A stretch of DNA of 51,175 nt from Pseudomonadota bacterium. GTDB taxonomy: Bacteria > Desulfobacterota > Binatia > Binatales > Binataceae. A model generated the notes under the pieces. It ran no database searches. It was not told the DNA's origin and saw nothing but the letters and a program-made list of their open reading frames with translations. Made by a program: the position numbers and the translations under genes. Below, one piece after another: positions 877 to 14,684 of this stretch. The number at the start of each line of letters is the position of its first letter. The first letter of the stretch is position 1. The stretch is taken from assembly GCA_021325355.1 (NCBI GenBank), contig JAJPHI010000012.1, positions 1-51,175 of the forward strand. The letters are read 5' to 3'.

Positions 877-1488
877 CTATTCGGGCCAGCTCGCCGCGAA
901 ACTCGCGCGCGCCTTCATCCGCGCCCACCACGCCGCAAGATTGGCGAACTCGGGCGGAATCGTGAAGCCCGCGCGCTCAAGATTCGCCAGCGGCGGCACG
1001 AAGGAAATGTCGCCGAGGCTGTACTCGCCAGCGAAGTATTCACGCCCGGCGAGCTCCTTGTCCAGGTAGGCAAAGTGCTGGCGCGCCTCGTTCCAGCCTT
1101 CGTCGATCCGCGCCTGGACGCGCTCGCTCGCGGATTTGCGCAACTCGAAAAAGATCTTGAACAGCGACGGCATCAGGTAGGCGTCGGCATAGTCCTCGAA
1201 CTTCCGCGCCGTCGCCCGGGCGACCGGATCGCGCGGCAGCAGCGGTTTTGCTGCCGGAAACCGGTCCTCGAGATATTCGTTGATAATTGTCGAATCGTGA
1301 ACGATTACGCCGTCATCGATCAGCGCCGGCACCTTGCCGACCGGATTGATCGCCAGATACTCGGGCCGCTTATGCTCGCCCGACGGCAAATCGAGCCAGG
1401 TCGTTTCCCACTTGAGCCCTTTTTCCAAAAGGGCTATGCGCGTTTTCCGCGCGTATGGTCAGGGCTTGTAGTCGAACATGCGGAGCAT
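877..1488 (-). CDS. Glutathione S-transferase family protein, probable selenoprotein (in-frame TGA at 1459-1461)
   Basis: An ATG at 1488, eight bases after a strong GGAGG, opens a frame reading MLRMFDYKP, then TGA, then PYARKTRIALLEKGL, and continues to a stop at 877. Reading through gives 203 residues, the normal GST length: an N-terminal thioredoxin fold (cis-Pro in NPVGKVPALI, substrate-site HDSTIINEYL) and a helical C-terminal domain. The TGA falls where GSTs have the catalytic Ser/Cys before Pro-Tyr, so selenocysteine (Sec10) is the simplest reading. Two hairpins follow at once; the one at 1415-1435 has nine pairs and a GGA loop 32 bases after the TGA, like bacterial SECIS elements. Starting after the TGA (TTG at 1428) would remove strand 1 and the catalytic residue. 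Alternatives are a nonsense mutation or a base error. selA/selB/selC/selD are not in the window. Last gene of a minus-strand run from 3976. Confidence 0.75.
1415..1452 (-). promoter_or_regulatory. Putative bacterial SECIS element inside the GST gene
   Basis: Directly after the TGA the mRNA can form GCGCG-GAAAA-CGCGC (1438-1452), then AGCCCUUUU-GGA-AAAAGGGCU (1415-1435). The second has nine uninterrupted pairs and a three-base loop starting with GG, 32 bases downstream of UGA. Bacterial SECIS models expect a G in the first two apical loop bases, 16-37 bases from UGA. Codons in the stem (CTT TTG, AAA GGG) are untypical of this G+C-rich neighbourhood, suggesting selection on RNA structure. SelB binding is inferred. 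Confidence 0.55.
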
Positions 1489-3976: not shown

Positions 3977-4086
3977 GGCTGGATCAAAGATAACCGCCGG
4001 TGGTCGCGGGAAACAATGGACCCGAGCGCCGTTTCGACGCCGCCGCCCGTATGCTATTGGCGATAGCGCGTAAGCGAGGTGCAGGC

Positions 4087-4530
4087 GTGGCTCATCCAAT
4101 CGGCAGAATCGATCATATCGGTATCGCGGTCCGCAGCATCGCCGAGGCGCGCAAGTTCTTCGAGGGCGTGCTCGGCGCGAGTTTTCTCTACGCCCACGAA
4201 AACCCCGAGGCCGGCTACAAGCTCATCGAGCTCGATCTGAATGGCTTCGTGATCGAACTGCTGGAACCGCTCGGCGAGCAGTCGTTTCTTCACACCTTCC
4301 TCGCAAGACGCGGCGAAGGCGTCCATCACCTTACCCTCGACGTCCCCGACTCGCGGACGAAGATCGCCGAACTCAAGCAGCAGGGGGTGGCCGTGGTCGA
4401 CGAGCGCGATTTTGGTCCGGCGTCCTACGAATGCTTCATCTCGCCGCGCGCCGCGCATGGCGTGCTTTTCCAGTTGGGTTCGGGTTACCCGACGCTGGCG
4501 CGCGCCGCCGAGTGGTTCGCGAAAAAGTAA
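4087..4530 (+). CDS. VOC-family protein, methylmalonyl-CoA epimerase-like
   Basis: 147 residues from a GTG at 4087, seven bases after GAGG; this start puts the conserved IDHIGIAV strand near the N-terminus, as in the family. Two beta-alpha-beta-beta-beta modules are present: the first has the metal-ligand His10 and an FVIELLEP strand, the second has GVHHLTLDV (His81). Methylmalonyl-CoA epimerases interconvert R and S methylmalonyl-CoA in propionate metabolism. Here the last metal-ligand position, normally Glu in GVLIEL, reads GVLFQL, so the exact substrate is uncertain. It is divergent from the membrane-protein gene at 3976 and 14 bases upstream of the cupin gene. Confidence 0.8.
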   Translation: MAHPIGRIDHIGIAVRSIAEARKFFEGVLGASFLYAHENPEAGYKLIELDLNGFVIELLEPLGEQSFLHTFLARRGEGVHHLTLDVPDSRTKIAELKQQGVAVVDERDFGPASYECFISPRAAHGVLFQLGSGYPTLARAAEWFAKK

Positions 4531-13683: not shown

Positions 13684-14684
13684 GACTGCCGGTTATCTTA
13701 CTGGGCCTGGCGACGATCGTCGCGACGGCGCTCACCGCGATTTATCTCGCGAGCCCACCGGCGCGCTTCGCGCAGCCGCGCCGCGTGACCGTTGCGCGCG
13801 GTCAGCCTTTCGGCGCCGTCGCGCGGAACCTGGCGCGCCTCGGCGTCGTTCGCAGCGCCCTGCTGCTCCGATGGTACGCCGAGTGGAAGGGATGCGCGAC
13901 GCAGGTAAAGCCCGGACTTTACGCGTTTGCCGGCGGCGAGGGCTTCGCCCAGGTGCTCGATCATCTGACCCGCGGTGATACGGTTAAAATTGTCGTGACC
14001 ATCCCCGAGGGTATGACGGTCCATCAGATTGGCCAACGCCTGCAGGCGCTCGGCCTGGTTTGCGACAGCGACTTCGACGAGGCGGCCTTTGCCGGACCAC
14101 TGCCGCGGGCTTTGGGCCTCGGCGCCCTCGGCGTCGAAGGTTATCTCTTCCCGGCGACCTATGCCTTTTCACCCGATGCGCGCACCGACGACGTTTTGAC
14201 GGCGATGCTCGCGCGCTTCAACGCCGTACTGACGCCGCGGGTGGCAGCGCGGATGTTCGAGCTGGGTCTCGACGAACGCCAGCTCGTGACTCTCGCCTCG
14301 ATGGTCGAAAAGGAAGCTCAGGTGCCGGGAGAACGCGCGGTGATCGCGAGCGTTTTCCTCAATCGGCTGCACCGGAATATGCCGCTTCAATCCGATCCTA
14401 CGGCGCAATACAATCGCGCAGGCGAGCCGGAACCGGCTCTGAACTCGGTGCATACGGCGTCTGCGTTCAACACTTACTCGATCAGTGGATTGCCGCCGGC
14501 GCCGATCGCCAACCCGGGGTGGCCCTCGATTCAAGCCGTGCTGTATCCAGCGCAAACCGATTATCTGTATTTCGTCGCGCGTCCCGACGGCACCCACATC
14601 TTTTCGCGTACGCTGCGCGATCATGAGGCGGCGATCGCCGCCTTGCGCCGCCTGCGCGCCCGGGAATCCGCCAGGGTCAACTGA
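13680..14684 (+). CDS. mltG: Endolytic murein transglycosylase MltG
   Basis: 334 residues. An N-terminal membrane helix (about 4-25) precedes a LysM-like subdomain and the YceG domain. The catalytic Glu is in LASMVEKEAQVPGER (Glu210 or Glu212), and QSDPTAQYN, NTYSISGLPPAPIANPG and DYLYFVARPDG are family signatures. It cuts nascent glycan strands and so limits their length. Start overlaps the ruvX stop. The last base of its stop is the first base of the next start, so the chain is translationally coupled. Confidence 0.96.
   Translation: MRLPVILLGLATIVATALTAIYLASPPARFAQPRRVTVARGQPFGAVARNLARLGVVRSALLLRWYAEWKGCATQVKPGLYAFAGGEGFAQVLDHLTRGDTVKIVVTIPEGMTVHQIGQRLQALGLVCDSDFDEAAFAGPLPRALGLGALGVEGYLFPATYAFSPDARTDDVLTAMLARFNAVLTPRVAARMFELGLDERQLVTLASMVEKEAQVPGERAVIASVFLNRLHRNMPLQSDPTAQYNRAGEPEPALNSVHTASAFNTYSISGLPPAPIANPGWPSIQAVLYPAQTDYLYFVARPDGTHIFSRTLRDHEAAIAALRRLRARESARVN

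Follow-up and report, generated by a model that had tools for sequence, protein, structure and literature searches.

A probable selenocysteine-containing glutathione S-transferase from Binatia with a candidate bacterial SECIS hairpin downstream of its in-frame UGA

The window, i.e., the whole stretch of 51,175 nucleotides that was analyzed, is contig C31 of a Binatia genome of 3.36 Mb (35 contigs, 95% complete). Near its start, on the minus strand, lies a gene of 203 codons for a glutathione S-transferase (GST; 877–1488), which runs from an ATG at 1488–1486 to a TAG stop at 879–877, has a Shine-Dalgarno GGAGG (1497–1501) 8 nt upstream of the ATG, and contains in the same frame, at codon 10, a TGA (1459–1461; TCA on the plus strand) that is the predicted selenocysteine codon (Sec, U10). 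The frame translates as MLRMFDYKP-TGA-PYARKTRIALLEKGL...SWPE. With the TGA translated as Cys, the product matched Pfam GST_N_2 with 80.8 bits (cut-off 25) and was likewise over the cut-off for GST_N_3, GST_N, GST_C, and GST_C_2; all five Pfam matches at E ≤ 0.001 were to GST families and none was to the GPX family. These coordinates and matches confirmed what a sequence-only reading of the window had described, namely a full-length, 203-residue GST with its own ribosome site and a TGA exactly where GSTs carry their catalytic Cys/Ser and where homologues indeed have a Cys or Ser codon.

The AlphaFold2 model (pLDDT 96.3, pTM 0.91) comprises a whole GST, in which a strand (residues 2–6) is followed by U10 (modelled as Cys) and then by a helix (residues 11–22). 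Together with the Pfam GST_N and GST_C matches, the model has the architecture of the GST superfamily, a thioredoxin-like N-terminal part and an all-helical C-terminal part. Structure comparison gave Z ≥ 8 for 998/998 aligned chains, the nearest solved fold being the Phi-class GSTF9 6f05 (Z 26.9, rmsd 1.7, 199 aligned) with others tied within 1 Z, and the nearest Foldseek hits were LigF, 4glt, and a Nu-class GST. Phi, Nu, Tau, and Delta GSTs as well as the beta-etherase LigF were among the nearest solved folds. GSTF9 and the Nu GST 6tah share the fold over the whole length of the window protein, but they are 24% and 29% identical to it, respectively, and contain no selenium.

A pattern scan for homologues with one genome per species (84,980 species) returned 110 relatives. 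Among the best 80 of these 110 loci, which were retained, the codon aligned with the TGA was TGA in 8, Cys in 39, and Ser in 26, while 7 alignments began downstream of it, i.e., Cys or Ser was encoded in 65/65 of the other alignable loci. The 8 TGA loci were the 8 top rows (67–78% identity), and the top match among named genomes was a Candidatus Binataceae MAG. When 148 genomes of the class were searched, 12 (the window's own genome included) had an orthologue at E 1e-92 or better among the matches listed, and a single internal TGA was present in 12/12. This set, referred to as group A, falls within one family (12/41 genomes) and 8 genera, with 67–79% identity between the other 11 orthologues and the window protein; the 8 TGA loci of the species-wide scan are a subset of it and add no further cases. 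Since no match had an identity between 67% and 49%, and the next ones were at ≤ 49% (148 class genomes, among the matches listed), a sense-codon orthologue appears to be absent from this set. The checks proposed in the sequence-only reading, whether the TGA aligns with Cys/Ser of homologues and whether other genomes also have it, thus both came out positive, and its view that a random nonsense mutation would be improbable at this residue was borne out. In 29 of the 41 genomes of the family, among them the only congener examined, the gene was not detected, which makes the Sec-GST dispensable.

More distant TGA-GSTs of the class may exist beyond the 12 of group A among the matches listed, and two further groups were recovered. 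In total, 30 genomes carried a TGA-GST (group A 12, group B 15, group C 3). In the 148 class genomes, the group-B query had 15 matches at E ≤ 1e-60, all with TGA and from 15 of the 16 members of one family (f2), and the group-C query identified 3 TGA genes (72–100% identity). When 391 relatives, which include at most 148 of the class, were searched with the group-C protein, the 75 genomes with a match at E ≤ 1e-45, a threshold at which weaker relatives are invisible, all belonged to the class. The U-P pair occupies the same column in every group (UPYA, UPYV, UPFA, or UPWA in A, UPFA or UPYA in B, and UPWC in C). In a GST tree with 111 rows that covered 25 of the 30 Sec sequences, 3 changes of the Sec label were required, and well-supported branches forced at least 2. 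A single Sec clade for all groups was also considered and is disfavored, both by this tree and by the AU test (p 0.027), which used a quick tree of 99 rows and groups that had been named with the first tree already in view; the Sec residue was masked in it, and 8 named rows as well as all rows unalignable at codon 10 were left out. Given the two further groups in the class, Sec probably entered the GST fold two or three times, the exact number being uncertain due to long branches in the tree, with one gain followed by losses as a less favored possibility. The replacement of Cys by Sec has been described as a general trend (PMC1794560). As a separate observation, a UxxC redox pair, which group A lacks, is formed by the UPWC of group C (L129, L139, L146), and both L129 and the Cys-type L037 had a weak, below-cut-off similarity to the model of the Uxx-star glutaredoxin-like selenoprotein.

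The machinery for Sec insertion, which the sequence-only reading had suggested looking for in the rest of the genome, is present: tRNA-Sec (Rfam 70.5 bits, gathering 47; identified as SeC with anticodon tca (UCA) by ARAGORN), SelA (512.7 bits), the SelB wing domain (72.3 bits, within a 653-codon open frame), and SelD (376.6 bits), which has an in-frame TGA of its own. In the latter gene (L141, G000 C29:60086-61012), a GGC-loop hairpin (−7.4 kcal/mol) stands 17 nt past the TGA, and the two together indicate from within this genome that it reads UGA as Sec. Among the 30 TGA-GST genomes, SelA was examined in all and SelB in part. SelB was detected in 17/19 further genomes examined, among them all 11 other group-A genomes, and the two genomes with neither a SelB nor a SelA match (G018, G022) are not TGA-GST genomes. 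SelA was over the cut-off in 125/148 class genomes, i.e., in 29/30 TGA-GST genomes vs. 96/118 others (one-sided Fisher p 0.027), a co-occurrence that lends weak support to Sec, as SelA is common in the class. The TGA-GST genome in which SelA was not found (G055, locus L106) does have SelB, consists of 430 contigs, and is 92% complete, and the missing SelA is probably an assembly gap.

Two hairpins follow the UGA on the coding strand. The candidate bacterial SECIS hairpin (AGCCCUUUU-GGA-AAAAGGGCU, 1415–1435) has its GGA loop at 1424–1426, 32 nt from the UGA, and a first hairpin (GCGCG-GAAAA-CGCGC, 1438–1452) stands between the two. All five pairs of the first hairpin are kept in 12/12 orthologues, three of them with one U-G, and this hairpin may, as a guess, shorten the distance from the UGA to the SECIS loop. 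The stretch in the window folds at −20.9 kcal/mol compared with −10.2 ± 2.7 kcal/mol when shuffled (0/200 shuffles as good), and six of the seven copies folded were at z −2.45 to −3.97, the remaining one (L016) being no better than shuffles (z −1.16, 30/200 as good). As given in a figure legend of a recent review, bacterial SECIS (bSECIS) elements have a loop of 3–9 nt, a stem of 4–16 bp, a G in the first two loop positions, a distance of 16–37 nt from the UGA, and an MFE ≤ −7.5 (PMC13188914, Fig. 2 legend). By these rules the window hairpin, GCCCUUUU-GGA-AAAAGGGC, passes with 9 bp, a GGA loop, −10.5 kcal/mol, and a loop distance that at 32 nt is far and still within the range.

A scan based on the same rules (unbroken stems only) was passed by 12/12 genes of group A, 14/15 of group B, 0/3 of group C, and 2/77 sense-codon GSTs, the control being the 77 distinct sequences > 450 nt among 88 alignable ones; with a GG/GU loop pattern, 1/77 of the control and 31/1200 (A), 9/1500 (B), and 0/300 (C) synonymous shuffles passed. 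The cut-off is strict, as the SelD hairpin of the genome itself (−7.4 kcal/mol) misses it by 0.1 kcal/mol. One group-B gene falls short of it by 0.7 kcal/mol and the group-C hairpins (−6.3 to −7.2 kcal/mol) by 0.3–1.2. At −6 kcal/mol, the passes were 12/12, 15/15, and 3/3 for groups A, B, and C, and 8/77 for the sense-codon GSTs. Codon usage points to the same region in group A: at codons 20–26, the codon was identical in 0.952 of same-residue pairs vs. 0.561 gene-wide (rank 1/202 windows; reached in 0/20,000 seven-column draws), compared with 0.498 (rank 134 of 208) in the Cys-type control (11 rows) and 0.497 (rank 83 of 196) in the Ser-type control (17 rows). Group B (11 rows) had no such peak, with 0.634 at codons 20–26 and at best 0.688 near the hairpin; its overall codon identity was 0.578 and its top window (0.791) was elsewhere than the hairpin. 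Compensatory changes were sought in the group-A hairpin and none was found, and they were seen in 3/9 hairpin pairs in groups B and C (11 + 2 rows). Rfam had no match over the gathering score around the gene, and the five sub-threshold ones, none of them at the hairpin, were taken as chance. The Cys/Ser-type GSTs of the class, e.g., a paralogue in the same genome (G000 C19:285946-286536, 42% identical), belong to the same family and have their residue in the same column, but they differ by a Cys or Ser codon, by having no over-cut-off SECIS-type hairpin in 75/77 cases, and by the lack of synonymous constraint in this region. Separately, a Cys-type GST from a Hyphomicrobiales MAG (L083) has GCGCUUUUGGAGAAGGGCGU at ~35–55 nt past its catalytic Cys codon, which passes the bSECIS scan at a distance of 32 nt, as in the group-A SECIS; it may be chance from similar codons or the remnant of a former Sec gene.

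The sequence-only reading had called selenocysteine probable, and the machinery, the retention of the TGA in relatives, and the SECIS-type hairpin 3′ of it all support this. On this genomic evidence, the window gene is almost certainly a true selenoprotein, a GST with Sec at residue 10 inserted at UGA. SelB carrying Sec-tRNA would bind the GGA-loop hairpin (1415–1435) as the ribosome arrives at the UGA (1461–1459), leading to Sec insertion, while translation without selenium would end with the release of a peptide of nine residues. Such a Sec-GST with SECIS-directed insertion and a glutathione-dependent role is, very probably, the best explanation overall.

With regard to function, 12/12 group-A proteins have zero cysteine residues, thus a selenol at U10 would be without an internal thiol partner and could not form an internal Se-S bond, and oxidized selenium would need an external thiol. 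Cys-poverty alone is not unique to group A, as 14/43 Cys-type rows have no Cys other than the catalytic one; group-B proteins have two or three distant Cys, and group-C proteins have one at +3. A glutathione synthetase (GshB) is encoded in the genome, so the host probably makes glutathione. The N-terminal thioredoxin-like half would hold glutathione, U10, located directly ahead of helix 1, would attack an oxidized substrate (a hydroperoxide, a disulfide, or another electrophile), and the oxidized selenium would be resolved most simply by two glutathiones (Se-OH -> Se-SG -> Se-). The shift towards peroxidase or redox activity that the sequence-only reading had suggested for a selenol at this position is plausible in view of published engineered seleno-GSTs, and we lean slightly towards a GST-fold enzyme that acts as a glutathione peroxidase/reductase rather than one of conjugation or dehalogenation. 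In GPX selenoenzymes, Sec is likewise placed in a thioredoxin-like fold and glutathione is the reductant. This is also described in PMC10812501; what may be shared is the chemistry only, as these enzymes are a different family and membership is not implied.

The main alternative accepts the Sec protein as real and assigns it to glutathione conjugation, dehalogenation, or thiol transfer, with the selenol acting as a stronger nucleophile. The structural neighborhood fits it, as several of the nearest folds (Phi, Nu, Tau, and Delta GSTs, LigF) are conjugating or ether-cleaving enzymes, and so does the residue found at alignable sense-codon loci (Ser 26/65, Cys 39/65, best 80 of 110). We consider it a serious possibility, although not the probable one, because most uncharacterized selenoproteins are likely redox proteins (PMC13188914) and because a Ser-to-Sec change in GSTs, whether chemical or genetic, confers glutathione peroxidase activity (PMC10812501, PMC9944854).

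Other explanations concern the TGA itself, and all of them were rejected based on TGA conservation, codon variation, machinery, and SECIS. It is very unlikely that translation begins past the TGA, with codons 1–9 forming a leader peptide: an ORF from TTG 1428 (183 aa) does exist and was the one called mechanically, but its product would be without strand 1 and the catalytic residue, inspection by eye shows an SD-like stretch ahead of most genes in a list of 25 TGA-GSTs, and codons 1–9 of group A encode the same residue in 496/594 pairs, 187 of these through a different codon, which indicates that they are translated. Reading of the UGA as Trp or Cys, through readthrough or a changed code, has an equally small chance of being correct; the frame would be open under such a code, but TGA is also an ordinary stop, since it terminates mltG (14682–14684), as the sequence-only reading had correctly noted, and 6/12 group-A GST genes, and the genome has tRNA-Sec, SelA, SelB, and SelD together with a SECIS-type hairpin 3′ of the UGA. 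Error, pseudogene, and chance are very unlikely sources of the TGA, as 12/12 orthologues from 8 genera share it with intact frames. For a nonsense mutation that broke the GST at codon 10, which is less probable still, the sole point in favor is that the standard code would end the frame there, and against it the residues on either side of the TGA are kept while their codons vary. A sequencing or assembly error at 1459–1461 is the least probable of all, given the identical TGA in 12 separate assemblies, several of which come from the same study.

Returning to the Sec-GST with a glutathione-dependent role, a more comprehensive reading can be put forward tentatively, and we would sooner doubt than accept it as a whole: Binatia would have made natural glutathione peroxidases from GSTs by placing Sec at the catalytic Ser/Cys two or three separate times, each with its own SECIS, the cysteine-free lineage of the window having become a one-selenol enzyme served by glutathione alone, in which the first hairpin brings the distant SECIS loop within the reach of SelB.

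Selenoproteins of this kind are already known, a point absent from the sequence-only reading. GST-like selenoproteins were predicted in 2005 from four Sargasso Sea sequences (PMC1088965), 12 Sec-containing GSTs were predicted in GOS (PMC2398784), and a ‘GST-like protein, PF13409’ is given, with no motif, in the table of a 2026 review (PMC13188914), MEK9676863.1 being one accession from that source; as presented in these sources, the natural proteins are computer predictions only, and the review regards the biological functions of such selenoprotein families as largely uncharacterized. Like the Sargasso and GOS proteins, the window protein belongs to the GST superfamily, has a single predicted Sec that is not part of a UxxC motif, and matches PF13409, the family name given to the published GST-like selenoproteins (PMC13188914). 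The set described here differs by its Binatia origin and by the cysteine-free group A, the likeness being drawn from published counts and the Pfam/COG name. In the open-access papers searched, we found neither the Binatia lineage, the repeated Sec gain, and the cysteine-free form of a Sec-GST nor any paper on selenoproteins or selenocysteine in Binatota, the one match for the latter being a paper that just cites a selenocysteine review; these three features are thus what is added here. Engineered seleno-GSTs (rat GST T2-2, human GST Z1-1, SeSh14) are similar in that an active-site Ser is replaced by Sec and glutathione peroxidase activity results (PMC9944854, PMC10812501), but they were obtained by chemistry or auxotrophic expression, in contrast to the natural UGA decoding proposed for the window gene, which could be a natural version of these laboratory-built enzymes. 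With 30 genomes, intact genes, the machinery, and Cys/Ser counterparts at hand, the role of Sec in a GST is directly testable.

The gene neighborhood is a loose link to the Sec-GST. Upstream of it on the same strand, two genes (1562–2083 and 2117–2713, both minus) encode small proteins that are related to each other, begin like lipoproteins as judged by eye, and had no NCBIfam match at E ≤ 0.001; relatives of them are likewise located upstream of the Sec-GST in L010, L017, and L108. A VOC protein resembling methylmalonyl-CoA epimerase (TIGR03081 85 bits, below the cut-off of 115) is encoded at 4057–4530 on the plus strand, 2.5 kb upstream of the Sec-GST and on the opposite strand to it, and relatives of this protein lie on the same strand as the Sec-GST and within ~1.3 kb of its start in 7/12 group-A loci (L011–L017; e.g., 2733–3191 in L011 and 3652–4101 in L013).
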